DNA of 64,000 nucleotides from Desulfarculus baarsii DSM 2075 (GTDB taxonomy: Bacteria > Desulfobacterota > Desulfarculia > Desulfarculales > Desulfarculaceae): assembly GCF_000143965.1 (NCBI RefSeq), contig NC_014365.1:62001-126000 (forward strand), written 5' to 3'. Within the stretch, counting starts at the first letter, position 1, and every line of letters starts with the position of its first letter. The notes below the pieces were generated by a model, which was not told the DNA's origin, did no database searches, and was given only the letters and a program-made list of their open reading frames with translations. Positions 49,804-63,123 of this stretch are shown here, one piece after another. A program made the position numbers and the translations under genes.

Positions 49804-49806
49804 GGC

Positions 49807-49855
49807 TGTGAGCCGCCACGCGAAACGCAAAAATCTGTCAAACGAAACGCAAAAA
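49807..49855. repeat. Left end of Mu-like element
   Basis: Starts TGTGAGCCGCCACG. CGAAACGCA occurs at 49821 and 49843 (22 bp apart). The 22 bases 49834-49855 occur exactly, inverted, at 57840-57861. TGGCTGTGAGC is repeated directly at 49803 and 49862. Confidence 0.78.
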
Positions 49856-49895
49856 CCAGCGTGGCTGTGAGCGATTGTTCGTGGGTGCGGGGCGG

Positions 49896-52217
49896 CTACA
49901 GATCAGCCAGCAGCGGGGCGAATTTGGCGCGCAGCCCTTGGCGCAGCGGCTCGAACTCCGCGCCCAGGGCCGGGCGCAGGCTTTCCACCAACGCGGCGGC
50001 CTGTGCGGCGGCGGCGGGGTCTTGTTGCTTTTCCAGCGTTATGGCCAAAAGGACGTATGGCTCCATGGCCAGGGCGGGCAGGCCGGCCTCGGCGAAGGTT
50101 TGACACAGTGGCAGGCATAGCAGCCACAAGTTGCCCCCGAAGCGCCCCAGCATCCCCCGCCAAAGTTCGGCCAGCCACTGTTGCCTGCCGCTGAATTCGG
50201 TGTTTGTCGCCAGTTTTCTTATGGCCGCAAGCGATTTGCCCAGCCTTTCGGCATAAGCCGCCGGCAATTCCAGCCAGCAGGCATATCTAATCATCAGCGC
50301 CTCGGCGTGCCGCTTGGCCGCTTCTGCGTGCTGGCCCATGGCGTAAAAAAGCGCGCCCAGGTTGTTGCAGGTCATGGCCACGTTTGGCAGATAGGCCTTT
50401 GGCTGCTCACGGGCCAGATCGCGATAAATCTTCAGCGCTTCTTGGAATAGCGCCAAGGCCGCTGGCCGCTGGCCCATTTCGGCCAAAAGGATGCCCAGGT
50501 TGCAGGTACCGGCCAGGGCGCTGGCTTCTTCTTCTCCCGCAACGTGGGCCTCGGCCAAGTTGCGCCGTGCATGCAAGGCAGCATCGTGCAAGCCCAACGC
50601 CTCGCGCCAAAGCCCATTTTGCTGCAATTTAGCGGCAAAGCCACCCGCAGCTTGGGCCAGCGTTTTCTTGCTCTGGTCGTTGGTCGCGCATGCCAGGCTT
50701 CGCGCCAGATGCTCCACCGTGCGCGCCAAGACATCATTGGCCGTATCGTCTGGCTGATTGGGTGCGACATCTAGCTGCAAGTCGTGCCAAACCCAATACC
50801 ATGGCGGCGCATGGGTCAACACGCCGCGCTCAGTCAGATCGGCGCGGCAGTCGCGCATGGTTCGCCCCGCATCACAGCATGCCTGGATCGTGGCGGTGAG
50901 CACATCCTCGTGCATGCCCTCGCTGAAGGTCCACTGCTTGTAGAGCCGAAGCGCGGTCAGGAACTCTTTTTCGTCCGCACCCACGGTATGGGCAAAGATG
51001 TTTTTCACCTGTTCGTTGGCGCTTAGGGCCGCACGGTTGGGGCCCTCCAGCCGGTGCACATCTAGTCGGTCCAGCGGCTCCATGCTTGGCTTGGGCGGCA
51101 GGTTGGCCAGGGCCATCAGATAGGCCCGGCCCAGGCCCAGGAGGGTTGTTTGGTCCGCTCCCTGGCCGACAAACATCCGTTCGGCAATGGCGTCCTTGGC
51201 CGATTCGGTCAAGGACAACCGATAGTTGTGCGCTTCGATGATGGCGCTCAGCACCTGGCGATGATCGTGGACCGGCCCCAGAAACAAATCGAGTTTTTCC
51301 CGTACCGGGTTCAGAAAACCATTCTTGCAAAGGCAGCGTTTGAAACCGGGCTGGGTCAACGCCTCTAGGTCTCGGGGCGCGACGTTCAGTTCGCCCACCC
51401 GCACGGTAATCATCGCCGGACCGGGGAAAAGTTGCAAACTCTCGAAGAATGTTTCGTCCAACGCTTTGTTAAACGGCAGATCCCATATCAGAAGAGGCAA
51501 ATTGGCATGGTCGTGAACATCGTACTTAACGGCGTTAATATAGCCGTTGATGTCGGTGTGGTATTTGATCCAGGCTACTCGGCCGCCGGAGGCAATCCAG
51601 CGCTGGGCCACCTTGAAGGCCAAAAACGTCTTGCCTGAAAGGGCCCGGCCGCGCAGCAAAACAGTCTTGGTTTGGCCAGCCTTGAACGCCTGGAATATGG
51701 CCGTGGATTCGGGCCGGTCCACCACGTGGATCAAGCCGTGTTCACTGACCTTGGGCTCGTTGGCCAGCAACTCGGCCACGGTGCAGATGATCTCAAATGG
51801 CGGCGCACCAACCAGTTCCATAATGCGCCGGCCCCATTGCTCATGCAGCTCGCGTTGCTCCTTTTTGATCTGGGCCAGCAGGTTTTGGCGCAGTGCTTCG
51901 GGCAGGTTGGCCAAGTCGTCTTTGAGCGAGGCAATCACCGCCGCCAGTTCCTCGATGGGGCGGGCGTTTGCGCTGGCCAGGGCATCAGCGGCGGCCAAAA
52001 CTTCGGCCTCCGACGCGCCATCGGTGGCCATCCGGCAAAGGCCCTCCACGCCCTTGACGGCGACGTCGCCAGCTAATGCGCCAACCACAAACGCCGGGAT
52101 TTGTTGGCCGCTGGCCGCGCAATAGGCCACGGCCAGCGCCAGGCCGGCGGCGTGGGGCAGCTTCTCGGCAATCTTGCACGAAAGATGCAGCAAGGCGTCG
52201 CTGAGCTTGAGCGGCAT
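49896..52217 (-). CDS. P-loop NTPase with hydrophobic N-terminus and C-terminal TPR repeats (STAND-like)
   Basis: A 773-residue cargo protein. Residues 20-60 are hydrophobic (AAGLALAVAYCAASG; PAFVVGALAGDVAV), then a coiled coil to about 135. Walker A is GRALSGKT at 190-197 and a Walker B-like strand is PLLIWDLP at 241-248. A helical middle is followed by TPR-like repeats from about 560 (NLGILLAEMGQRPAALALFQEAL; NNLGALFYAMGQHAEAAKRHAEAL). This three-part layout resembles NLR/STAND proteins, many of which act in anti-phage defence, but I cannot assign it to a named family. I chose ATG 52217 with GGGGGA upstream. Confidence 0.68.
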   Translation of the reverse strand: MPLKLSDALLHLSCKIAEKLPHAAGLALAVAYCAASGQQIPAFVVGALAGDVAVKGVEGLCRMATDGASEAEVLAAADALASANARPIEELAAVIASLKDDLANLPEALRQNLLAQIKKEQRELHEQWGRRIMELVGAPPFEIICTVAELLANEPKVSEHGLIHVVDRPESTAIFQAFKAGQTKTVLLRGRALSGKTFLAFKVAQRWIASGGRVAWIKYHTDINGYINAVKYDVHDHANLPLLIWDLPFNKALDETFFESLQLFPGPAMITVRVGELNVAPRDLEALTQPGFKRCLCKNGFLNPVREKLDLFLGPVHDHRQVLSAIIEAHNYRLSLTESAKDAIAERMFVGQGADQTTLLGLGRAYLMALANLPPKPSMEPLDRLDVHRLEGPNRAALSANEQVKNIFAHTVGADEKEFLTALRLYKQWTFSEGMHEDVLTATIQACCDAGRTMRDCRADLTERGVLTHAPPWYWVWHDLQLDVAPNQPDDTANDVLARTVEHLARSLACATNDQSKKTLAQAAGGFAAKLQQNGLWREALGLHDAALHARRNLAEAHVAGEEEASALAGTCNLGILLAEMGQRPAALALFQEALKIYRDLAREQPKAYLPNVAMTCNNLGALFYAMGQHAEAAKRHAEALMIRYACWLELPAAYAERLGKSLAAIRKLATNTEFSGRQQWLAELWRGMLGRFGGNLWLLCLPLCQTFAEAGLPALAMEPYVLLAITLEKQQDPAAAAQAAALVESLRPALGAEFEPLRQGLRAKFAPLLADL

Positions 52218-52358
52218 CGATCCCCCCATGGCGGCCAGACATTGCGGCGCGGCAGGCGCGTTTGGCCATCATAGGCCAAAAAACGGCAATTCGGCAAGCT
52301 TGCGACATGGCGGCCGCGCCACGTTTCCATGGCGCGGCCGCGGGTGGCCACCTAATCC

Positions 52359-52637
52359 CTACCCCAGATAACGAAACGACTGCACGGCCCTGAAATGACC
52401 GCCATAGCCCGAGCTGGCGCTGCCGGTGCGCTTGGCGGTTTTGGTCATGGACCGTTCGAACCTTTGCTTGTTGCCGCCGTGCAAATAGGCGCTCACTTGG
52501 CCCCATGCCGGCCGTCGGCGCAAGGCCCGGGCCAAACCGGGGTGGCTGGTGCCGCAAAGAACGGGCATGGGCTCATAGTTGCTGATCAGCAGCCCGCGGG
52601 CTTCTATTCTTGCACCCCCTGTTGAGTCTAGGCTCAT
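52359..52637 (-). CDS. Possible small protein of unknown function
   Basis: An open frame of up to 92 residues, Arg-rich and without recognised domain (segments VLCGTSHPGLARALRRRPAWG and YGGHFRAVQSFRYLG). No strong ribosome-binding site is seen; an inner ATG (MPVLCG) is possible. The 52230-52854 gap otherwise shows only overlapping short frames. It could be cargo or chance. Confidence 0.3.
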   Translation of the reverse strand: MSLDSTGGARIEARGLLISNYEPMPVLCGTSHPGLARALRRRPAWGQVSAYLHGGNKQRFERSMTKTAKRTGSASSGYGGHFRAVQSFRYLG

Positions 52638-52854
52638 CGGGCCTGATCGGCGCCCGGCGCTGGCGCGTCAGCTCTGGGGGCGCCGCAACGTGCTGGGCAC
52701 CCAAAAACCGTTTGATGATTTTGGGGCAATTTTTAAATTTACTGGGGATCAGCTTTGGCTGTCCCCACCATTTTAATGCGCACACGCGCATTGCATTATG
52801 CACGAAGTTGGGCCATGATAAAAAAATTGCTGGCGTTCATCCGATGGAGTAGAC

Positions 52855-53058
52855 ATGCATAGAGTTGTTGCAGCCTTTTCGGCGATGGCGGGGATTGTAT
52901 TTTTGTCGTTGACGGTGCCTATGCTTGACGCCTTTTAGCACGCCAACCGCGAAGGTGGCATGCTGATGGTTGTCTCGATAATGCTATTGCTTATTTGCCT
53001 CGGGGTGTTGCTGCTAATGTTGGCGTGGAGAATCTATAAAATGGGGCCTAGGGGCTAA
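52855..53058 (+). pseudogene. Small two-helix membrane ORF with in-frame TAG
   Basis: From ATG 52855 (GGAG 5 bases upstream) the frame encodes a hydrophobic helix (AAFSAMAGIVFLSLTV), then TAG at 52936-52938. The same frame continues through a second helix (VVSIMLLLICLGVLLLMLAW) to TAA 53056. Both halves look coding, as in a small two-TM protein. Explanations are a nonsense mutation, readthrough of the amber codon (some deltaproteobacteria read UAG as pyrrolysine), or two short peptides, the second from ATG 52960. Confidence 0.5.
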
Positions 53059-53125
53059 TGAACTGGCCGAAAAGCGAAAGAGATTGCCGGCTCGTCTCGA
53101 TGGACCTCTTTGTCAAGGTGATGGC

Positions 53126-54370
53126 ATGGGAAAATTACAATTTTTGACGGACCCGTTCCTGCGAGTGAACCTTGACATTGACGGCGCGCGGAGCAACCAT
53201 CCGTTCTTCGCTCAAGTGGTGAAACATTTCTGGGCGGAGAGCAACGCACGACACCCTAAGCTACCATTGGTTAAGGCCTTCAGACACGGCGTCGCCATAG
53301 GTGTGCTCCCCCGCTGCTTCGACGAATATTTTGCCCTCATCAGTCCGGCGGCGCGGCGCAATTGCAAAAAAGCAGAACGCGAAGGCTTTGGTTTCGCCAG
53401 AATCAATTTCAATGATCATCTTGCTGATATTGCTGCCATAAGGTGTTCTAGTCCAGTGCGCCAGGGCGCAATGCCAGAGTCCTACCTTTGCGGTGATGTC
53501 AAACCGTGCACGGATCCGCCCAGTCAAAGCAACACGCATGACTACCCTTATTTCGGTGTGTTGAAGGATGGGCGGCTATTGGCCTATGCTGGGTGCCTGG
53601 TCAGTGGGGAGGTGATGTTGATCCAGCATATACTTGGCCATGCCGACTTCCAAAGTTTTGGAATCGTGCCCATGATGATCGTGGAGATGGCGCGATATTG
53701 CCTGCAAAATTATCCGGGCGTTTTGTATTATGGCTATGGCTCTTACTATGGTGCCAGCGACGAGATGCAGCGCTTCAAGGCCAAGTTTTTATTCACGCCT
53801 CACCGTGTTGATTGGCGGCTTGGTTGTGGTCAATCAGCTCCGGCCCAGCCGCTGACGCCGCCTATGTTTGCTTCGGAATCCGACGAAGCGGCTAATTATC
53901 AGAACGTTTACAGGCTGGTCAATCCGCGCCCCATCGCCACGGCGGCACGCACCGGCGTTCGTTTTTTAGTGCTGCGTGGGCCGGCAAGCGGACTGGTGGG
54001 CTTTGACTATTTGAGGCGGCTGAGCGGCTCGGCCGGAGCGCTCAAATCTTTGCTGAAAATATGCACTAGGCGACGTTTTTTTTTCATGGTGGAAGAGGAT
54101 GGTGACGCGGTCTCCACCGGTTGGTGCACCCTCGCTCCGTGCGCGCACTATGAGGTCGAACCACAAGCCGTCATCATTGGCCCTATCTGGACCGCACCAG
54201 GTGAACGCCGGCGCGGGCTGGCCACTTATGCTTTAAAAAATGCAATCAACGAGTGCATCCAACACGGCGCTAGCATTATCTATATAGATACATCGCGGGA
54301 TAATATTGCAGCCCAGCGCGTGTTTGCCAACTGCGGCTTTGGCGAGCCCGTCATGCGCTATCCCAGGTAA
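53126..54370 (+). CDS. Two-domain acyltransferase with C-terminal GNAT fold
   Basis: A 414-residue protein. The N-terminal half resembles the FemAB/BioF2-like acyltransferase fold (YFGVLKDGRLLAYAGC, then IVPMMIVEMARY). The C-terminal part (about 290-410) is a GNAT domain with the acetyl-CoA loop PGERRRGLATYAL and the strand ASIIYIDTSRDN. It has a lower GC content than its neighbours, a sign of transfer. The start (ATG 53126) has AAGGTG upstream. The gene is convergent with the transposase gene and overlaps its end by 13 bp. The substrate is unknown; modification of a surface sugar, tRNA or protein is possible. Confidence 0.7.
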   Translation: MGKLQFLTDPFLRVNLDIDGARSNHPFFAQVVKHFWAESNARHPKLPLVKAFRHGVAIGVLPRCFDEYFALISPAARRNCKKAEREGFGFARINFNDHLADIAAIRCSSPVRQGAMPESYLCGDVKPCTDPPSQSNTHDYPYFGVLKDGRLLAYAGCLVSGEVMLIQHILGHADFQSFGIVPMMIVEMARYCLQNYPGVLYYGYGSYYGASDEMQRFKAKFLFTPHRVDWRLGCGQSAPAQPLTPPMFASESDEAANYQNVYRLVNPRPIATAARTGVRFLVLRGPASGLVGFDYLRRLSGSAGALKSLLKICTRRRFFFMVEEDGDAVSTGWCTLAPCAHYEVEPQAVIIGPIWTAPGERRRGLATYALKNAINECIQHGASIIYIDTSRDNIAAQRVFANCGFGEPVMRYPR

Positions 54371-56037
54371 ACGCTCACCAGCGCACCCCCACCCACGCGC
54401 ACACCGGCGCAGACCGGCCAGTGCGTCACACCACGGCCCGCATTCGCCGGGCCAGTGGGGGAGCTAACTCTTCCCCCGCCTGTCCTAACTCTTTTCTTCT
54501 TCGCTTTCGCCCCATAGCCCAGCCAGGCTATCCAGCTCGTGGGGTTCCATTTTTCCGGCGGGCGGGTGGCCAGGCGCACCCGGCAGCGGCTGGGCCGCAC
54601 CTCCTTGCGCCAGAGGAAATCCCAGGCCAGGGCGTCCATGTCCACGCCCGGCCCGCGTCCGGCCGCGAAAACCTCCAGCGGCGTGCGGCCGTCCAGGCCC
54701 TCGTGGGGCTGCTGGCCGTACCAGCCAAAATAGGCCTGGATGATCTCGGTGGCCTGGGCGATGGTCGGCACGGCGTCGTTGTGGCGGGCGCGGTGAAACT
54801 TCTCGTTGCGGGCCAGGTAGGCCGGCTTGTCGGCCACCGACGCCCCGCGATAGCTGGGCAACAGCCGCGCGCACTGGGCGTCGAACGTGCCGAAAAACCG
54901 CTCGACGATCTTTGTCCGCGCCTGGTAGGGCCGGCTGTATTGCACGGCGATGCCCAGGCGCTGGTACAATCCCCGCGTCTGCATGGGCAGTTCGTCGTCC
55001 ACGGCGCTGCTGAAAAACTTGGCCCGAAAGGCCCGGCCATTATCGAGGTAAACCACCTTGGGCGTCTGGCCCAGATTCTTGATGGCCATGAACAGGGCCG
55101 CGCTGATGGCCGTGGTGTTTTCCTCGGGCATGATCTCCCAGCCCACCGGCATGCGCGAGGCCCAGTCCAGCCATAAAATCAGGCACATGCGGGCCGGCTT
55201 GCCGGTGAACGGGTGGATGCAGTCGAAATTCAGGCGATGACCGTCGGCCACCAGCACGTCGCCCACGGCCAGTTGGCCGGCGTCGCGGGTGATGTAGGGC
55301 CCCACCTTGTCGGCCAGGGCCTTTTCGCCCTCGCGCATCAGCACCACCAGGTCGTGGTTTTCGCGGCTGTAGCGTTGGATGAATCGGCGGGTGGTGCTTT
55401 CGGTGGGCAGCGGCAGGCCGCGCTCGGCAAGCACGGCGCACATGCCCCTATAGGCCAGGGCTATCGACGGCCGCTCGGGGTCCAGGTAAATTTTGGTCAG
55501 GATTTCTTGGGCTTCCGGGCTGATGCGCCCTTGCACGCCCTGGGCCTGGGCCCAGCCGCGATGGTCGCACAGCGCCTGGTAGTCGCCGCCGGCCTCCTTG
55601 AGCGCCCGGTCCCAGCGATAAAGCTGGTGCTTGGTCACCCGGCCCAGAATCTTGAACACCGCCGGGTGGCTTTGGCCGCTGTTGTAGGCCGCCAGAAACG
55701 CCGCGTCGGCCGTGGTTTTAGCCTGGGCGCTCAGACGATGAACCCGCCAGGCCCCGTGCAGTTCCAGCTTGGCCAGGCCGATCTCGTGGGCCCTGGCCGG
55801 GATCGCCTGGCCCGCCGAGGGGCTGGGTCTGGTCGCCACCGCATTCTGGGCCTCGTGGGCCGTGATCGCCGCCCGAACGTCGGCGGGCAGGCTTGCCGAA
55901 ATCCATTCGCAACCACCGCCCCTGCCGCTGCAAGGCCGCGATTGCCAGTTTTCCTTTTTCGCGCGTCTGGTGATCGAGCTCTTGGCCAGAACTTTCAAAA
56001 TGGTCATGAGCTCTTTGGTGGAATATGCTCCGCGCAT
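54358..56037 (-). CDS. MuA-like DDE transposase
   Basis: A 559-residue transposase. The N-terminal Mu-type winged helix (YSTKELMTILKVLAKSSITR; GRGGGCEWISASLP) binds the ends. The core has catalytic Asp265 (VADGHRLNF), Asp332 (VYLDNGRAF) and Glu379 (KIVERFFGTFD), close in number and spacing to MuA. The C-terminal region is shorter than in MuA, where MuB and ClpX bind, and ends in a Gly/Val-rich tail. ATG 56037 overlaps the upstream stop (TGATG). The last gene of the early operon; no MuB follows. Confidence 0.9.
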   Translation of the reverse strand: MRGAYSTKELMTILKVLAKSSITRRAKKENWQSRPCSGRGGGCEWISASLPADVRAAITAHEAQNAVATRPSPSAGQAIPARAHEIGLAKLELHGAWRVHRLSAQAKTTADAAFLAAYNSGQSHPAVFKILGRVTKHQLYRWDRALKEAGGDYQALCDHRGWAQAQGVQGRISPEAQEILTKIYLDPERPSIALAYRGMCAVLAERGLPLPTESTTRRFIQRYSRENHDLVVLMREGEKALADKVGPYITRDAGQLAVGDVLVADGHRLNFDCIHPFTGKPARMCLILWLDWASRMPVGWEIMPEENTTAISAALFMAIKNLGQTPKVVYLDNGRAFRAKFFSSAVDDELPMQTRGLYQRLGIAVQYSRPYQARTKIVERFFGTFDAQCARLLPSYRGASVADKPAYLARNEKFHRARHNDAVPTIAQATEIIQAYFGWYGQQPHEGLDGRTPLEVFAAGRGPGVDMDALAWDFLWRKEVRPSRCRVRLATRPPEKWNPTSWIAWLGYGAKAKKKRVRTGGGRVSSPTGPANAGRGVTHWPVCAGVRVGGGALVSVYLG

Positions 56038-56483
56038 CACCTGCCCATGCCTTCCCAGCCAAAAACACGGTCAGAATCTTCGAGTGCCTCCAATGCCCTT
56101 CGTCTGGCCCGCGCGACCTTTTTTGCTTCAAGCTGAACGCGGCCCAATTCCATCAGGTGCTGTTCCCGCTCGCCCATTAAGTGGGCTCCAAGCGGCAACG
56201 ACAACACCTCCAAAGGTCTAAGCGAACCAACCACTTGACAAAAAAAAGGCAACACCCATACGGGCGGCAAATGGCTGGCGCTTGGCGCACACCACTTTTC
56301 CAGTGAGTTCAGCGTGACTCTGAGGACAAGTCCTTCACCCTCGAGAAGGCGGTTGATCTCGTCCACGACTTGCTCGCGGCTTAGTCGGCAATTTCGAAGC
56401 GTGTCAGCGAGGGCCCGCTTGAGTGGCGAAATTACATCCAAGCTCTGACCGAATAGGGGCATTTGTCCTGGATGCATGGTCAT
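56037..56483 (-). CDS. Early-operon protein of unknown function in Mu-like element
   Basis: A 148-residue helical protein. The first half (SPLKRALADTLRNCRLSREQ; VTLNSLEKWCAPSASHLPP) has the look of an HTH-containing DNA-binding domain that selects by temperature of context in Mu-type early operons; the second half is a charged coiled coil. I do not recognise a named family. It sits between the Ner-like gene (TAATG overlap) and the transposase (TGATG overlap), so the three are co-translated. It may regulate transposition. Confidence 0.6.
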   Translation of the reverse strand: MTMHPGQMPLFGQSLDVISPLKRALADTLRNCRLSREQVVDEINRLLEGEGLVLRVTLNSLEKWCAPSASHLPPVWVLPFFCQVVGSLRPLEVLSLPLGAHLMGEREQHLMELGRVQLEAKKVARARRRALEALEDSDRVFGWEGMGR

Positions 56484-56776
56484 TATAATCCGCTCCCGAC
56501 GCTGGAGTCGTCTGTACAGGGCCGGCACTCGGACATTGACCGATGAGATTGTTTGAAGGTATGGTTTACATTAGAAGATCGACCTGGAGTCAATTCCTCG
56601 ACCGCAACTTCAATGACCCGCGCGACATGCTCAAGGATGCGCGAGGCGGGCGAGCGGGTCTGCCCGTTAATGGCTCTGGTCACCGTTGAGGGCGCACAGT
56701 CAAGCTCCCTGGCAATATCAACCGCCAGCACTCTGCGACGTCGCAATTCGGCCCAGATGTCGTCGGTGGTAAGCAT
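56483..56776 (-). CDS. Ner/Cro-like HTH regulator
   Basis: A 97-residue protein whose first 60 residues form an HTH (IWAELRRRRVLAVDIARELDC; PSTVTRAINGQTRSPASR), like Ner of Mu and other short Cro-type regulators. A Ser/Cys-containing tail follows. It is the first gene of the early operon opposite the repressor gene, the place of ner in Mu. ATG 56776 chosen. Confidence 0.78.
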   Translation of the reverse strand: MLTTDDIWAELRRRRVLAVDIARELDCAPSTVTRAINGQTRSPASRILEHVARVIEVAVEELTPGRSSNVNHTFKQSHRSMSECRPCTDDSSVGSGL

Positions 56777-56811
56777 TAGTGCGCCCTGTCGTGCAAATGG
56801 TTTGCAGCTCT

Positions 56812-56841
56812 ATTCTATGCATATGTGGTTCAATGCGTCAA
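56812..56841 (-). promoter_or_regulatory. Early promoter of the Mu-like element, with operator-like sequences
   Basis: On the minus strand, TTGACG (56836-56841) and TAGAAT (56812-56817) are 18 bp apart. Palindromic bases (CATATGCATAG around the -10; CTAATTAG at 56844-56851) lie between the divergent repressor and Ner-like genes and are candidate operators. Confidence 0.6.
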
Positions 56842-56869
56842 CCCTAATTAGCCGAATATGGATAATTAA

Positions 56870-57628
56870 GTGAGCAACAACTCTTCCATACGTAATAACC
56901 GGGTCGAGATTGGAGGGAGATTCCGGGAAATCAGAAAGCAGTTAGGGCTCAGCCAGCAAGAGTTTGCCAGTGTTTTGGGCGTAACCCAGGCTACTGCCTC
57001 CAGGATTGAAAGGGGAGAGGTGTCCGCAACCGTCGAAGCGCTTTCAGGTCTTCTATGCGCATATCCAGATTTGGATGTTGGCTACATCCTGTGCGGCAAC
57101 ACCTCGGCCATTCAGTCACCCTGCCCGGACGCCTTGGAAGTGGCGGCGAATATTTGTCCTGTGATCCGCACCATGAACTCTGATTTGAGCGATGTGCAGC
57201 AGGAGAACGTGGCGGATGATTATCTGGCGGTTCCTCTGTTGGAAGGCAAGGCCGCCGCAGGGGCTGGGGGTGTGACTTGGAATCAAGTCAAGTCGCTTGT
57301 TTGGGTTTACAAGCCGGAGCTGGGTCAACGGCGCAACTGTGTCGCTCTGCGGGTCTGGGGGGATTCCATGGAGCCGACAATTCCCGATGGCTCCATCGTC
57401 ATAGTGGACTTAGATCAGCGAGAACCGGATGGTCGCGGAGAGCACGTTTGGGCGCTTCGCACCGAAGACGGCGACACAATCATCAAGCGACTGCGACAAA
57501 CCCCACAGGGGGTGTGGGTAATCATCTCAGACAACTCCATGTCCTATGGCCCCTCTATTGTATGGACGGGCGATTTTCACCGCCTTGTTATTGGCCGCGT
57601 CATATGGATGTGGCGCGCGTTGCCTTGA
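56870..57628 (+). CDS. LexA/CI-type repressor (XRE HTH + S24 peptidase)
   Basis: A 252-residue repressor. N-terminal XRE HTH (about 15-70; LGLSQQEFASVLGVTQATASRIERG). The C-terminal S24 domain has the catalytic Ser in GDSMEPTIPDG and Lys in TIIKRLRQ. An Ala-Gly in EGKAAAGAGG near residue 128 is a possible self-cleavage site. It is divergent from the early operon, so it probably keeps the element quiet and may release it after DNA damage. GTG start. The actual Mu repressor is not of this S24 type. Confidence 0.87.
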   Translation: MSNNSSIRNNRVEIGGRFREIRKQLGLSQQEFASVLGVTQATASRIERGEVSATVEALSGLLCAYPDLDVGYILCGNTSAIQSPCPDALEVAANICPVIRTMNSDLSDVQQENVADDYLAVPLLEGKAAAGAGGVTWNQVKSLVWVYKPELGQRRNCVALRVWGDSMEPTIPDGSIVIVDLDQREPDGRGEHVWALRTEDGDTIIKRLRQTPQGVWVIISDNSMSYGPSIVWTGDFHRLVIGRVIWMWRALP

Positions 57629-57839
57629 CCAGATGACGCGCAACAGTTCCGATTCTACGGTCACTCAAAAATATCTAATAATTTTTCGCAGTTACCGCAT
57701 ATATGTCCGCGCAACGGTTGCGCAACGCTTTGCCCACGAACTGTTGCCCAGCCACGTCCGACAATTTTAATTTCCTCCGAGATAACACTTCATAATAACT
57801 AAATATTTTTCCAAACTTGCCCGTTTGGCCCGCAGCCAT

Positions 57840-58019
57840 TTTTTGCGTTTCGTTTGACAGATTCAGCCCGAACGGCCGATTTTTTGCGTTTCGATTTTTG
57901 CGCGGATCGGGCCGGCCCCAAAATCCCTAAGACCGTGATAGTCCTACGTTAGTCCTGCTTTGGTCCCATGTTTTCAAGGCAGTATGCGGCTTTGCGTTTC
58001 GTCTGGCAGGCTATACACA
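57840..58019. repeat. Right end of Mu-like element
   Basis: TGCGTTTCG occurs at 57844, 57885 and 57993, in the orientation opposite to the left end. The 22 bases at 57840-57861 are the exact inverse of 49834-49855. The outer site runs on to GGCAGGCTATACACA, which mirrors the left-end TGTGAGCC...GCCA. Confidence 0.74.
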
Positions 58020-58036: not shown

Positions 58037-58070
58037 AAAACGAAGGGGCCAACCATGAAGGCTAACCCCT
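58037..58070 (-). terminator. Displaced terminator of tRNA-Leu
   Basis: On the minus strand AAGGGGTTAGCC pairs fully with GGTTGGCCCCTT (three wobble pairs), and TTCGTTTTG follows. Being next to the truncated tRNA-Leu copy, it is the original terminator, now separated from the gene by the integrated element. Confidence 0.72.
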
Positions 58071-58137
58071 TGTTTTTATTTGGTGCCCGGGGCGGGAATC
58101 GAACCCGCACGCCCTTGCGAGCTGGGGATTTTAAGTC
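58070..58137. repeat. Attachment site copy (truncated tRNA-Leu)
   Basis: 68 bp identical to 63026-63093. It covers the tRNA-Leu 3' half up to the anticodon loop; the 5' part is absent, so this copy is not a functional tRNA. Confidence 0.92.
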
Positions 58138-58247
58138 TCACGAGTCATGTTTCCGCAACTACGACAAGAGACGATTGTATATGATATTTAGCGCAGATAG
58201 AGCTTTACAAAATCCCCTGAGTACGCCAAAATATGCCCAGTTTTGAC

Positions 58248-58274
58248 GCCGTTTGCTTCCTATTTGCTTCCGAA
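58248..58274. repeat. Arm-type repeat near the integrase gene
   Basis: 27 bp matching 62952-62978 with one difference; each holds two TGCTTCC units. Copies near both ends of the element suggest integrase or excisionase arm sites. Confidence 0.65.
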
Positions 58275-58312
58275 TTTTTGGAGCTTTCGACAATAAAAAC
58301 TGGGTAGTGACC

Positions 58313-59518
58313 ATGCACCTGCTTACGAAAAAGGGCATTGACGCCCTGCAACCCGCCGAAACGGAGTTCTGGGTATGGGATTCCAAGCTGTCAGGCTTCG
58401 GCGTCAGAGTGCATCCCACCGGCCGCAAAGTCTTTGTGGCTCAATATCGCTCGCAAACCGGCCGCACCCGCCGCATGGCCTTGGGCCAGGTGGGCAAGAT
58501 CACCCTGGATGAGGCGCGCACCCTGGCCCAGCGAGTTTTTTCCGACGTGGCTAAGGGCCTTGACCCTTCCGCCAACCGCAAGCAGGGCCGGACAGCTCCC
58601 ACCGTCGCCGAACTGTGCGCCCGTTATCTGGCCGAACATGCCCAGGCCAAGAAAAAGCCGGCCAGCCAAGTCAGAGACCGGCGGTTGATTGAGCGCTTCA
58701 TCATCCCCCAACTTGGTGGCGAGAAGGTCAACACGCTTTCCAGGGCCGACGTGGCCAAGCTGCACAACGCCATCGGCCGTGAAACGCCCATCCAGGCCAA
58801 CCGAACCCTGGCCGTGGTGTCGAAGATGATGACCCTGGCCATCCGGTGGGGCCTGCGAGACGAAGCCAAGGGCAACCCGGCCCAGTTCATCGAACGTTTC
58901 CGCGAGGCCAAGCGCGAGCGCTATTTGTCCGCCGACGAACTGGCGCAACTGGGCCAGGCCCTGGCGGCCGCCGAAAATGAAGGCTGGGGATTCAGGCCGG
59001 CCATTGACGCCATCCGCTTTCTGTTGCTGACCGGCGCGCGGGTGGGAGAGGCCCTGTCGCTACGTTGGGAATGGATTGACCGCGAGCGCGCCTGTATCTT
59101 TCTGCCAGACTCCAAGACGGGCCGCAAGGCCCTGCCCATCGGCGGCGCGGTGCTCGCGATGCTGGACGGCCTGGCCAAGCAGGCCGGCAACCCGCATGTG
59201 TTCCCCGGCCAGAGCCTGGGCCGGCCGCTGGTGGACATAAACACCACATGGCGCAAGGTGCGGGCCAGGGCTGGGCTGGAAGGCGTGCGCCTGCACGACC
59301 TGCGTCATAGCTACGCCAGCGTTGGGGCCGCATCGGGCCTGAGCTTGACGCTGATTGGCGCGATTTTGGGGCATTCCGAGCCCAGCACCACGGCCAGATA
59401 TTCTCACTTGGCCAACAACCCCTTGGCCCAAGCCGCCGATATGGTCAGCGCCAAAATCGCCGCCGCCCTGGCCGCGCCGGTGGCGGAAAAAGTTGTGGCA
59501 CTGCGACGAAAAGAGTGA
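58313..59518 (+). CDS. int: Tyrosine integrase, P4-like
   Basis: A 401-residue integrase with an N-terminal DUF4102-type domain (KLSGFGVRVHPTGRKVFVAQYR), a SAM-like core-binding domain (about 100-190) and a catalytic domain with GARVGEALSLRW (Arg), HDLRHSYAS (His, Arg) and LGHSEPSTTARYSH (His, Tyr). It inserts the element into tRNA-Leu. I chose ATG 58313; upstream in-frame starts overlap the arm-type repeat. Confidence 0.94.
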   Translation: MHLLTKKGIDALQPAETEFWVWDSKLSGFGVRVHPTGRKVFVAQYRSQTGRTRRMALGQVGKITLDEARTLAQRVFSDVAKGLDPSANRKQGRTAPTVAELCARYLAEHAQAKKKPASQVRDRRLIERFIIPQLGGEKVNTLSRADVAKLHNAIGRETPIQANRTLAVVSKMMTLAIRWGLRDEAKGNPAQFIERFREAKRERYLSADELAQLGQALAAAENEGWGFRPAIDAIRFLLLTGARVGEALSLRWEWIDRERACIFLPDSKTGRKALPIGGAVLAMLDGLAKQAGNPHVFPGQSLGRPLVDINTTWRKVRARAGLEGVRLHDLRHSYASVGAASGLSLTLIGAILGHSEPSTTARYSHLANNPLAQAADMVSAKIAAALAAPVAEKVVALRRKE

Positions 59519-59682
59519 TTTTCCCCTTGACGCCCCCGTGGCCAGACTCTATACTCTACACAGAATTAGGCAATCCGTGTCTGGCGGTGTGCGAGTTGAA
59601 GGCGGGTAGAGCCCGCCCCTTCGGGTAGGCTGCGCACATACAGGCAAGGGCGGGCATTAGGCCCGTTCGCGCTCGGGCAGAG

Positions 59683-59737
59683 CCCGCGTGAAAAGCGAAA
59701 CAGTCTTAACTGTTTTGTCTCCACGCGGGTTTTTTTG
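59683..59737 (+). terminator. Nested-hairpin terminator after the integrase gene
   Basis: Outer stem CCCGCGTG/CACGCGGG encloses AAACAGT/ACTGTTT; TTTTTTT follows. Other GC-rich stems lie just upstream (59605-59680). It can end integrase transcription or act as an attenuator before the AlpA-like gene. Confidence 0.75.
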
Positions 59738-59770
59738 TGGCCGCGCCGGAGACGGAAAGGCCTAGCCATC

Positions 59771-59980
59771 ATGAGCCAACCCGTCGTTTTTCTTGCAACC
59801 CCCCAAGCCGCCGAACTCCTGGGAATCAGCCGCAAAACGCTCGAAAAGTGGCGTCTTGTCGGCGGTGGCCCATCCTACTGCAAGGTGGGGCGTCTTGTCC
59901 GCTACACCTCCGACGACCTGCAGGCTTGGCTGGATAGCCGCCGCCGCGTGTCCACCAGCGACCCCGGCGTGGCGGCCTGA
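59771..59980 (+). CDS. AlpA/excisionase-like MerR-type HTH protein
   Basis: A 69-residue protein with the small HTH_17 fold: ATPQAAELLGISRKTLEKWR and YCKVGRLVRYTSDDLQAWL. Such proteins act as excisionases or regulators of integrase in islands and satellites. GAAAGG lies about 10 bases before the ATG. Confidence 0.86.
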   Translation: MSQPVVFLATPQAAELLGISRKTLEKWRLVGGGPSYCKVGRLVRYTSDDLQAWLDSRRRVSTSDPGVAA

Positions 59981-59982
59981 CC

Positions 59983-60222
59983 ATGGCCGGCCACGCAGAC
60001 AACACTTTTCCGGCTTGTTTCGGCAATTACCAAGCCGACTGCCCGTATAGGGATTGTGACAGGGCAACCCGCCTGGAATGCCAAGGCGCGGCCCGTCTGG
60101 CGGAGGCGCGGAAAGCAAACCTCCTTGCCCGCCGGCGGCGCGGCGAACTTGGGCCGCGTGCGGCCTATCTGGTTTGGCGCTGGAACTACGCCCCCAACGA
60201 AGTCCGCGACCTGGACGAATAG
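59983..60222 (+). CDS. Small Cys-containing protein of island
   Basis: A 79-residue protein. Four Cys in the first half (PACFGNYQADCPYRDCD; LECQG) could bind zinc. An Arg-rich stretch follows. It starts 2 bp after the AlpA-like stop. Not recognised; perhaps a small DNA-binding protein. Confidence 0.6.
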   Translation: MAGHADNTFPACFGNYQADCPYRDCDRATRLECQGAARLAEARKANLLARRRRGELGPRAAYLVWRWNYAPNEVRDLDE

Positions 60223-60232
60223 GGGTACTGAA

Positions 60233-61408
60233 ATGGCGTTGAAGCTTGTCGGCCAGGGCCTGGAAGCGCCCCGCCCAGGGGCGCGCACTCTTGGTTTTGA
60301 TACTCTTGATAATAAGAGTATTAATAACTCTTATATTTATAGCACGAAGCGTGCCAACATGCTTGACTTCGGCGGCGAAAACGGCACGGCGCACATGCAA
60401 CGCCTGCTGGGCTGGCTCCAACGCGGCGGCGCACCAAAGCCAGAAGCGGCCCAGATTGCCGAAATGGTCAATCAAAACACTGGCTTCACCTTCACCGCTC
60501 CCCACCTGGAACAGATGCTTGACCGGGCCTATGCGGCCCAGGGCAACGCGGAGGCGAATCTCACGCGGGAAATACGCGAATGGGTTTTGTCAACATCAGG
60601 CAACTTCCAGTCAACACAAGTCAACATTGAGCTTGGTTTGTCAACACCAGTCAACAAACGCAAAGTTTCCGTCGTTCTGGGCCGGCTGGTGTCCGAGGGC
60701 CTGATCGAGCGTGTCGGCAAGGAGCGGGGCCATTTTCGCGTAGTGGATCGAAGCGTGACCAGCATTGATTGGCGTTCGGCAACCTTGACCGCCGGCCTGC
60801 CCATCTTGTGGCCGCTGGATTTGCACGATCGATTTGAGACCATGCCCGGTTCGGTGATCGTCGTCGCTGGCGAGAGCAACTCGGGCAAGTCGGCCTGGAT
60901 GCTGGCCACGGCCCAGATGAACTTGGCGTCTGGCAAGTGTAAGAAAATAAGCTACTTCGCCAGCTCGAATGAGAGCAACGCCTTAACCCTGCGGAAACGC
61001 ATTGACGCCTTTGGCCTTCCAGATTCGGCATGGGAAGGCTTCGAGGCTTCCCGGCCCGGCGGCGAGTTCGCCGACGTCATAGACCCAGAAGGTCTTAATC
61101 TCATTGACTATTTGGAAGTTCACTCTGACTTCTACGAGATCGGCGGCAAGCTGGCGGCCATCTCCGAGAAGTTGCGCGACGGCGTGGCGGTCGTCGGCAT
61201 CCAGAAAGCGCCTGGCGTTGAGCTGGCGCGTGGTGGTGCCATGACCCTGGACAAGGCGACGGCCTACCTGGCGCTTCATCGCGGCGACGTTGCCAACGGT
61301 GAAGCTCACACTTTGAAGCTGCCCAAAGTGAAGTATCCGAAAGTCGATTACGCTTCAAAGCCGATCAAGTTCAAGCTGGCCGGTGGCTGTCGGTTTGTGC
61401 GGGCCTGA
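60233..61408 (+). CDS. P-loop ATPase with central winged-helix domain (RecA/RepA-like)
   Basis: A 391-residue protein. The middle (about 110-172) looks like a winged helix (LGRLVSEGLIERVGKERGHF). Walker A is GESNSGKSA at 213-221, followed by a RecA-like ATPase core (VGIQKAPGVELARGGAMTLDKAT). Similar ATPases serve as replicative helicase or RepA-type proteins in islands. The first 45 codons are AT-rich (about 60290-60350), and the start is uncertain (ATG 60359 is possible). A replication role is supported by the GTCAACA array in the gene. Confidence 0.7.
   Translation: MALKLVGQGLEAPRPGARTLGFDTLDNKSINNSYIYSTKRANMLDFGGENGTAHMQRLLGWLQRGGAPKPEAAQIAEMVNQNTGFTFTAPHLEQMLDRAYAAQGNAEANLTREIREWVLSTSGNFQSTQVNIELGLSTPVNKRKVSVVLGRLVSEGLIERVGKERGHFRVVDRSVTSIDWRSATLTAGLPILWPLDLHDRFETMPGSVIVVAGESNSGKSAWMLATAQMNLASGKCKKISYFASSNESNALTLRKRIDAFGLPDSAWEGFEASRPGGEFADVIDPEGLNLIDYLEVHSDFYEIGGKLAAISEKLRDGVAVVGIQKAPGVELARGGAMTLDKATAYLALHRGDVANGEAHTLKLPKVKYPKVDYASKPIKFKLAGGCRFVRA
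60589..60656. repeat. Iteron-like GTCAACA array
   Basis: Five exact GTCAACA copies start at 60589, 60610, 60620, 60640 and 60650, spaced 21, 10, 20 and 10 bp (whole helical turns). They fall in two reading frames, so the repetition is at DNA level. An AT-rich stretch with ACTCTT/AAGAGT lies about 250 bp upstream. Confidence 0.65.
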
Positions 61409-61440
61409 CCCCCACTTTTTGCGTGAAACAGGAGAAGCAA

Positions 61441-61674
61441 ATGCGTGAAACAGCAACGAAACCGCCGGGGGGTATCCCCAGGGCCAGGCTCAAGACCTGC
61501 GACGATGTGCGGCGCTTTCTGGCCGCCACCATCAACCGCGTCAATCGTGGCGAGCTTGACCACCAGATCGGCGGGCGTTTGGCCTACATGGCCAACATCC
61601 TTGTCGCCACCATCCGCGACAGCGACTTTGAGCAACGCTTGGCCGCGCTGGAGGGGCAAGGCAATGGGCGTTGA
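61441..61674 (+). CDS. Small island protein
   Basis: A 77-residue protein of unknown family (CDDVRRFLAATINRVNRGEL, then GGRLAYMANILVATI). Strong CAGGAGAA before ATG 61441. It overlaps the next gene by 11 bp. Helical; similar short proteins occur in phages and islands. Confidence 0.72.
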   Translation: MRETATKPPGGIPRARLKTCDDVRRFLAATINRVNRGELDHQIGGRLAYMANILVATIRDSDFEQRLAALEGQGNGR

Positions 61675-61852
61675 ATCCATCCGCCGCCGCCTGGCCAGGT
61701 TGGAGGCCGGCCAGCCGGAAAAAAACATCTGCGCCCATGATTGGGGAGTCCCCCGTTTCGCCACTGAGGACGCATGGTTCCGCGCCGCCAAGGCGCAGCA
61801 AGCCGAACTGCTGGCGGTGGAGCGAGACAGGAGAACGCCCCATGCCCAATGA
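61664..61852 (+). CDS. Small island protein with N-terminal RRRL-x2-LE motif
   Basis: A 62-residue protein starting ESIRRRLARLEAG, a motif shared with the next gene product. GAGGGG lies upstream of ATG 61664. Function unknown; the N-terminal helix may mediate assembly. Confidence 0.65.
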   Translation: MGVESIRRRLARLEAGQPEKNICAHDWGVPRFATEDAWFRAAKAQQAELLAVERDRRTPHAQ

Positions 61853-62054
61853 CGCCTTGCGCCGCCGGCTCCAGGCCCTCGAAACCGCGCCCCGCCGGAC
61901 GGCCAAACGGCCGTTGTGGATCGAAGGCCCAGGCGACGCCGCGACCGCCCGCGCTTGTGACGGGCAAGTTTTTGCCCGCCAGGCTGGCGAGCCCTGGACT
62001 GAATTCAAAAACCGAGTTGAGGCGTCCAAAGCGCCACTGATCATTTGCAACTAA
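61842..62054 (+). CDS. Small island protein, paralogue of the preceding one
   Basis: A 70-residue protein starting DALRRRLQALETA, then a Pro/Arg linker and LWIEGPGDAATA. CAGGAGAA precedes ATG 61842. It overlaps the previous gene by 11 bp. The shared N-terminal helix suggests duplication. Confidence 0.66.
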   Translation: MPNDALRRRLQALETAPRRTAKRPLWIEGPGDAATARACDGQVFARQAGEPWTEFKNRVEASKAPLIICN

Positions 62055-62068
62055 CCGTACAGGAGATT

Positions 62069-62707
62069 ATGATGAAAAAACAAATCACCGCCACCGCCGA
62101 AGCCCTTCACGCCACCGCCGGCCAGATCACGCGGGCCTGCCTGGCCCACGAAAAAGCCCAGGCCGCCATCTCGCCCGATCTGCGCCCGGAAGTGGCCAAG
62201 GCCCGCCTTGGCGAAGCCCGCCAGGCCCTCGACGTGGCCGTCAAAGAACCCCTTTCCGCCATCCGCGAGGCCCGCCCGCAAGCCGAGGCCCTGCGCCAGC
62301 GCTTGGGCGACGTCGAAGCGTGTTTGCTCCTGGCCGGCATGGCCGGGCCGGAACAGGCGGCCGTGAACGCCTCTGACTCGCTGCTGATCGCCGCCTTGGC
62401 CAGCCTGACCACCGACAGCTTGCTTGACCTGGCCGGGCGCGGCAAGCCGCTGGTCGTGCTGCTGGCCCGCCAAGAGCTGGCCCGCCGCGTGGCAGACAAA
62501 CACGCCCCCGTCGAACTCGTGGCCGCCTTCGACGCCACGGCCCTGGAGCGCTTCGGGCGGCCGGACCTTATCCGCCAGATTGCCGACGCCGAGCGTGAGG
62601 CCCTGGCCGCCGAGCGCCGGCTTCTTGAGGCTCACGGCCCGGCCGGTGACGTGGCTGTCCGAAAGTTGGCCCTGGCCCACGCCGAGGCCGCCCTCCCCGC
62701 CGCTTGA
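62069..62707 (+). CDS. Helical coiled-coil island protein
   Basis: A 212-residue, almost entirely helical, Ala/Leu/Arg-rich protein without recognised domain. AGGAG precedes the ATG at 62069 (ATG 62072 also possible). It closes the gene row and is followed by a terminator. It may be a structural or DNA-condensing protein. Confidence 0.7.
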   Translation: MMKKQITATAEALHATAGQITRACLAHEKAQAAISPDLRPEVAKARLGEARQALDVAVKEPLSAIREARPQAEALRQRLGDVEACLLLAGMAGPEQAAVNASDSLLIAALASLTTDSLLDLAGRGKPLVVLLARQELARRVADKHAPVELVAAFDATALERFGRPDLIRQIADAEREALAAERRLLEAHGPAGDVAVRKLALAHAEAALPAA

Positions 62708-62735
62708 TCGCCTGACCGCGTCCACCAACCCCATG

Positions 62736-62759
62736 GGCGGCCTTCGGGCCGCCTTTCTT
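62736..62759 (+). terminator. Terminator of the island operon
   Basis: Perfect stem GGCGGCC/GGCCGCC with TTCG loop and TTTCTT tail. Confidence 0.88.
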
Positions 62760-62951
62760 GTATCAACTCCCGATGATAGCCACCAGTTGCCATTCTGGCC
62801 GCCAAATTGCCCCGTGGTGGCACGAGCGGCGTTTGGCCGCTGTCCAACATTGCCGAGGAAAGATCGTGGCTTGTGGTGGCTATTTGGAAGTCGGCCCAGG
62901 CCAGCTTGGCCGTCGGAACCTGAACGACATACAACGGGCGCGGCTTTTCCT

Positions 62952-62978
62952 GCCGTTTGCTTCCTATATGCTTCCGAA
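62952..62978. repeat. Arm-type repeat near the tRNA-side attachment site
   Basis: Matches 58248-58274 with one difference, same orientation, about 50-75 bp inside the repeat at 63026. The rest of the 62760-63025 gap shows no credible gene. Confidence 0.65.
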
Positions 62979-63025
62979 AGCAAATCAGGCCATGTTTCGC
63001 GAGTAGGGCTAAAACGCCTAACATA

Positions 63026-63093
63026 TTGTTTTTATTTGGTGCCCGGGGCGGGAATCGAACCCGCACGCCCTTGCGAGCTGGGGATTTTAAGTC
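63026..63093. repeat. Attachment site copy at intact tRNA-Leu
   Basis: 68 bp identical to 58070-58137; it contains the 3' half of the functional tRNA gene and its downstream bases. Confidence 0.92.
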
Positions 63094-63123
63094 CCCTGTG
63101 TCTACCAGTTCCACCACCCGGGC
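63037..63123 (-). tRNA. tRNA-Leu (TAA)
   Basis: An 87-nt type II tRNA: acceptor GCCCGGG/CCCGGGC, anticodon stem GGGGA/TCCCC with loop CTTAAAA (anticodon TAA), long variable arm, T arm with TTCGATT and encoded CCA. The tRNA reads UUA codons, rare in GC-rich genomes. Confidence 0.95.

Follow-up and report, generated by a model that had tools for sequence, protein, structure and literature searches.

What is a P-loop-TPR gene doing in a transposing element of Desulfarculus baarsii DSM 2075? The gene lies within a 64,000-nucleotide stretch of DNA (the window), and a first-pass annotation had described its product as an NLR/STAND-like protein carried as the cargo of a transposon. An answer requires that the carrier be identified, that the layout of the protein be established, and that a possible role in the exclusion of phages be weighed against other uses of such a gene (Table 1).

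Table 1. Features of the P-loop-TPR gene and of the element that carries it, with positions in the window.
Feature	Position	Strand	Remarks
P-loop-TPR (NLR/STAND-like) gene	49896-52229	minus	777 aa
N-terminal helical region, aa 1-145	51795-52229	minus	mildly hydrophobic helices, then a long charged helix; putative effector; low-confidence secondary structure
Walker A GRALSGKT, aa 194-201	51627-51650	minus	preceded by a hydrophobic strand; single such motif
Walker B-like strand LLIWD, aa 246-250	51480-51494	minus	by eye from the sequence
AMITVR, aa 272-277	51399-51416	minus	candidate sensor-1 strand with terminal Arg, by eye
TPR region, aa ~576-668	50226-50504	minus	Pfam TPR_10 (6e-9), TPR_1 and TPR_2, all above cut-off
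GNAT acetyltransferase, second cargo gene	53084-54370	plus	428 aa; Acetyltransf_1 1.4e-16; weak FemAB-like N-terminal half
MuA-like transposase	54358-56040	minus	truncated after ~aa 492, without Mu-transpos_C
C-terminal fragment of Mu-like late gene	54491-54595	minus	tblastn; matches late-protein model positions 155-189; fused to MuA
Phage transcriptional regulator	56037-56528	minus	phrog_2345, E 1.3e-26
Ner/Nlp-like HTH regulator	56483-56776	minus	HTH_35; phrog_769
CI/S24-type phage repressor	56870-57628	plus	Peptidase_S24 and HTH_3; phrog_4 1.5e-37
R end of deleted prophage	49807-49868		terminus TGTGAGCC...; R1 ~49807-49829; R2 (TGTCAAACGAAACGCAAAAA) 49836-49855; R1 and R2 22 bp apart
L end of deleted prophage	57839-58015		L1 57994-58015; L2 near 57885; L3 57840-57859

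The carrier is an internally deleted Mu-like prophage

The P-loop-TPR gene is carried by an internally deleted Mu-like prophage of ~8.2 kb (49807-58015). The element is flanked by a perfect 24-nt inverted repeat, and the core of this repeat also marks the two ends of a second, 40-kb region of the genome. This second region is an intact-looking Mu-like prophage (40,471 bp; C1:1744161-1784631; L042-L044) with the 5-bp duplication ATCGC on both sides. Its genes encode an endolysin, a MuA of full length (765 aa, with Mu-transpos_C) and a MuB-like ATPase of the AAA_22 family. Both ends of the deleted prophage were 100% identical to those of the intact prophage, over 64 nt at the R end (49805-49868, compared with C1:1744161) and over 177 nt at the L end. 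Three L sites together with two R sites form the pattern of phage Mu. The MuA of the deleted prophage, which is frameshifted in addition to its truncation, is 92% identical to its intact-prophage counterpart across aa 6-492.

The deletion junction joins MuA to the tail of the last late gene at an 8-bp microhomology, CCTGGCCA. No MuB-like gene and no virion genes were found within the prophage, from which the deletion removed ~30 kb of phage genes. As in Mu and Mu-like phages, MuA is accompanied by a Ner-like regulator, a c-type repressor, and L1-L2-L3 and R1-R2 sites, and accessory genes follow the last late gene, ahead of the R end. Unlike those phages, the element has a truncated MuA, lacks MuB and the virion genes, and carries a P-loop-TPR gene and a GNAT gene as its cargo. 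The placement of the gene in a transposon was therefore correct in that it is the cargo of a transposing element, but a simple transposon is ruled out as the carrier because the ends, the regulators, the truncated MuA and the late-gene fragment are all those of a Mu-like prophage. The sequences flanking the deleted prophage (TTGGC and CACAC) contain no matching 5-bp target duplication, so transposition need not have brought it here in the form that it has now.

Other traces of mobile elements were seen in the genome. On the high-coordinate (L) side of the intact prophage, two L-end copies are found 254 bp apart. A ~0.6-kb remnant of the same Mu-like family (L045, C1:2819983-2820592) retains both element ends, L and R, the R end in degenerate form; it is too short for phage genes between its ends and resembles a miniature derivative. 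Next door to the deleted prophage is a separate ~5-kb integrative element (58062-63102) encoding a tyrosine integrase (58253-59518), an AlpA/HTH_17 protein and a P-loop replication-type protein (60056-61408). An 85-nt direct repeat (92%) forms its boundaries and spans the 3' part of a tRNA-Leu gene (63037-63123).

The GNAT and P-loop-TPR genes occupy the slot that separates the last late gene from the R end. In the intact prophage this slot is empty, and the late gene directly adjoins the R end. Phage Mu itself carries accessory genes, mom among them, at its right end. In a related Mu-like phage of another genome (G001), the same slot holds a D12 adenine DNA methyltransferase (G001:C5 48040-48816; L049), and two Mu-like phages of a third genome (G003) had no obvious cargo at the right end. 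A survey of right-end cargo by way of the late gene returned nothing in viral contigs and only a few slots in relatives. In the phage collection, the relatives of the intact prophage's MuA were all distant (<30% identity), which left no close phage whose annotated right-end cargo could be compared. A second occurrence of the P-loop-TPR gene was found at an older R end just outside the intact prophage, where the last ~24 codons of a diverged copy are preserved (79% protein identity; 89% over 161 nt, end included). Right ends of this Mu-like family have thus carried the gene on at least two occasions; the remaining copies observed are decayed 3'-terminal fragments.

Two small reading frames adjoin the cargo genes. 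Between the P-loop-TPR gene and the GNAT gene (52855-53061) there is a frame for a small two-TM protein with an in-frame TAG at codon 28 (MHRVVAAFSAMAGIVFLSLTVPMLDAF*HANREGGMLMVVSIMLLLICLGVLLLMLAWRIYKMGPRG), and just upstream of the P-loop-TPR gene (52359-52637, minus strand) there is a 92-aa ORF with no Pfam match, which may encode a small partner or may not be a gene.

Layout of the protein and identity of its NTPase domain

The P-loop-TPR gene is present in one copy in the 3.66-Mb, one-contig genome. Its third-codon-position GC of 0.74, compared with 0.88 in the flanking host genes, suggests a foreign origin. An alternative start at the internal Met5 (52217), which is where the first-pass annotation had ended the gene, would give a protein of 773 aa.

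Three elements of the earlier description were recovered, namely the Walker A motif, the Walker B-like strand and the C-terminal TPR-like repeats. The GxxxxGK[ST] pattern and its preceding hydrophobic strand read VLLRGRALSGKT (aa 190-201); shuffles of the protein produced motif and strand together in 0.5% of cases and the Walker A pattern taken by itself in 1.0%. The LLIWD strand was read directly from the sequence. The TPR families matched above the Pfam cut-off, with only ~2 repeats (aa 576-645) significant.

The proposed N-terminal features agreed less well with the data. The N-terminus, earlier described as hydrophobic, is so only mildly, with a best 19-residue Kyte-Doolittle mean of 1.41 compared with a similar 1.39 at aa 703-721; hydropathy revealed no clear membrane helix in this region and gives no support to a membrane-disrupting effector. 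No Pfam family matched aa 1-160 at cut-off, and no effector domain could be recognised there. Where a coiled coil had been proposed, aa ~106-140 were predicted as a long helix only, in a low-confidence model. The single-sequence AlphaFold models had pLDDT values of 42 and 37, which are too low to use, and the DSSP strands come from a low-confidence model.

Assignment of the NTPase domain depended on profile comparisons. Pfam reported nSTAND5 (E 0.0015) and nSTAND3 (E 0.08), both below cut-off, and no other NTPase family. Single sequences were also compared by hhalign with an alignment of ten nSTAND5 domains, and here the NTPase domain of the P-loop-TPR protein obtained a probability of 13% over 31 columns. 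Generic P-loops used as controls (MuB-like, YsxC and one other) obtained 10-60%, STANDs of other clades 80-90%, and left-out members >95%. Because hhalign gave so low a probability and the nSTAND5 model matched weakly in 14 of 14 control genomes, the nSTAND5 match was not taken as STAND membership. By profile comparison the domain is indistinguishable from a generic P-loop, whereas true STANDs can be distinguished. What remains of the NLR/STAND-like assignment is an arrangement in three parts, with a helical N-terminus, a P-loop and TPRs. This arrangement and the motifs are consistent with a STAND, although membership is not established, and the protein may work like a STAND without being filed as one. 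A relation to the Avs family, which had also been suggested, was not borne out, as no PADLOC model (Avs/AVAST included) matched at E up to 10. NCBIfam likewise gave no match at cut-off. Nor did the protein prove to resemble a transposition ATPase: the MuB-like ATPase of the intact prophage is a separate AAA_22 protein, and it is absent here.

Relatives of the protein were confined to its C-terminal part. The first 520-580 residues, which comprise the N-terminal and NTPase regions, had no homologues in ~480 Desulfobacterota genomes, plasmids, phages and viral contigs, and in a scan of genome contigs relatives matched in the TPR part only. A search of solved-structure sequences returned nothing meaningful. 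Outside the family, conflict-type proteins are among those that matched the TPRs best: a DUF4062-TPR protein (L004, DUF4062 below cut-off), a cyclase-NB-ARC-TPR protein (L002) and a TIR-NB-ARC-TPR protein (L013). A further protein (L003) has an N-terminus similar to that of L004, with no DUF4062 match. A published report describes DUF4062 as a TIR-like NADase that acts in antiphage defence (PMC13174449). A C-terminal homologue from the Desulfarculaceae (G003:C222:91467-92243) is 38% identical over aa 602-770, covering the TPR and a C-terminal helical region. In contrast to the P-loop-TPR gene, this 258-aa ORF lies outside any recognised Mu-like element and lacks both the P-loop and the N-terminal region, and it is the surviving C-terminal fragment of a relative.

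A candidate exclusion gene at the right end

The carrier, the right-end slot, the P-loop and the TPRs of this Mu-family cargo gene (a moron) are established. We further infer, tentatively and at somewhat less than even confidence, that its product works like an NLR/STAND anti-phage switch. In such a switch the C-terminal TPR part would sense a component of an intruding phage, the central P-loop domain would bind nucleotide and oligomerise, and the N-terminal helical region would act as, or recruit, an effector causing cell death or arrest, with the outcome that the lysogen would exclude competing phages. Several observations favour an exclusion gene: the combination of a P-loop, C-terminal TPRs and a separate helical N-terminus; the sub-cutoff matches to nSTAND5 and nSTAND3, with no other NTPase family in the Pfam results; the conflict-type proteins among the best TPR matches; and the right-end slot as variable cargo space, with the diverged 3' copy at another R end. 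Known STAND-TPR defence genes in phage satellites point the same way, as TIR-STAND-TPR defence proteins occur in P4-like satellites and, together with other STAND-repeat defence proteins, in P2/P4 phage and satellite hotspots (PMC9122126). Like those proteins, the P-loop-TPR protein joins an N-terminal region, a central NTPase and C-terminal TPRs in one polypeptide and is variable cargo of a phage-derived element; unlike them, it has an N-terminus without an effector family and an NTPase that does not score as STAND, and its carrier is Mu-like. A similar comparison holds for the Avs (AVAST) and bNACHT NLR proteins, which share the order of N-terminal region, P-loop NTPase and C-terminal repeats or sensor, but differ in that the protein described here matches no PADLOC model, has no known effector and has a short sensor of ~2 significant TPRs. 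An exclusion function is also made less secure by the generic P-loop-like profile score, the lack of NCBIfam matches at cut-off and of homologues for the first 520-580 residues in the sets searched, and the absence of known defence genes adjoining the P-loop-TPR gene.

The shared slot may instead hold cargo that has no part in immunity. A homologue of the GNAT in G001, 50% identical, lies inside an exopolysaccharide/exosortase-like cluster, so the GNAT is more likely a surface-modifying enzyme (no homologues were found in viral contigs and plasmids). The P-loop-TPR protein could then be an accessory of the GNAT in surface modification of the lysogen, such as serotype conversion or receptor masking, and the profile tests, which give STAND no edge over other P-loops, agree with non-immune cargo of this kind. 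However, the two genes are divergent and do not form one operon, the G001 homologue has no P-loop-TPR partner nearby, and the remnant at the other R end retains just the 3' end of the P-loop-TPR gene; we consider non-immune cargo of this kind unlikely. Decay offers a different account, in which the gene is a leftover ORF without present function in a degraded prophage. The state of the element would fit this, given its damaged MuA, its missing MuB and virion genes, its unmatched flanks, the in-frame stop in the small membrane ORF among the cargo, and the 3'-terminal fragments that are the related copies elsewhere. Against it, the frame of 777 codons is intact with a well-formed Walker A motif, and the retention of the P-loop-TPR and GNAT genes through so large a loss suggests either a recent deletion or selection, and we doubt that the gene is simply decaying.

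A STAND-like ATPase need not be a defence effector, and the protein might instead regulate or signal for prophage or host expression by a MalT-like logic. STAND regulators such as MalT also combine a P-loop with TPRs (PMC10427625), and an intact repressor and other regulators were kept in the deleted prophage. Nevertheless, Pfam detected no DNA-binding domain at either end of the P-loop-TPR protein, and a regulatory role strikes us as improbable. Of the anti-phage switch itself, a bolder version can be framed, in which the deleted prophage is a mini-Mu satellite, moved and packaged by the MuA and MuB of the intact prophage through its preserved ends, and earning its keep through an NLR-like defence protein of a new, unclassified sort whose helical N-terminus is a membrane-active effector. 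We regard this version as very improbable.

The P-loop-TPR gene is a well-located candidate, not a demonstrated immune gene. The Mu right-end slot is best known for anti-restriction DNA modification. If the anti-phage switch were confirmed, this slot would also carry NLR-like exclusion genes in the Mu family and would be a place to look for more of them, and an NTPase and an N-terminal region missed by current family models would be added to those already described.
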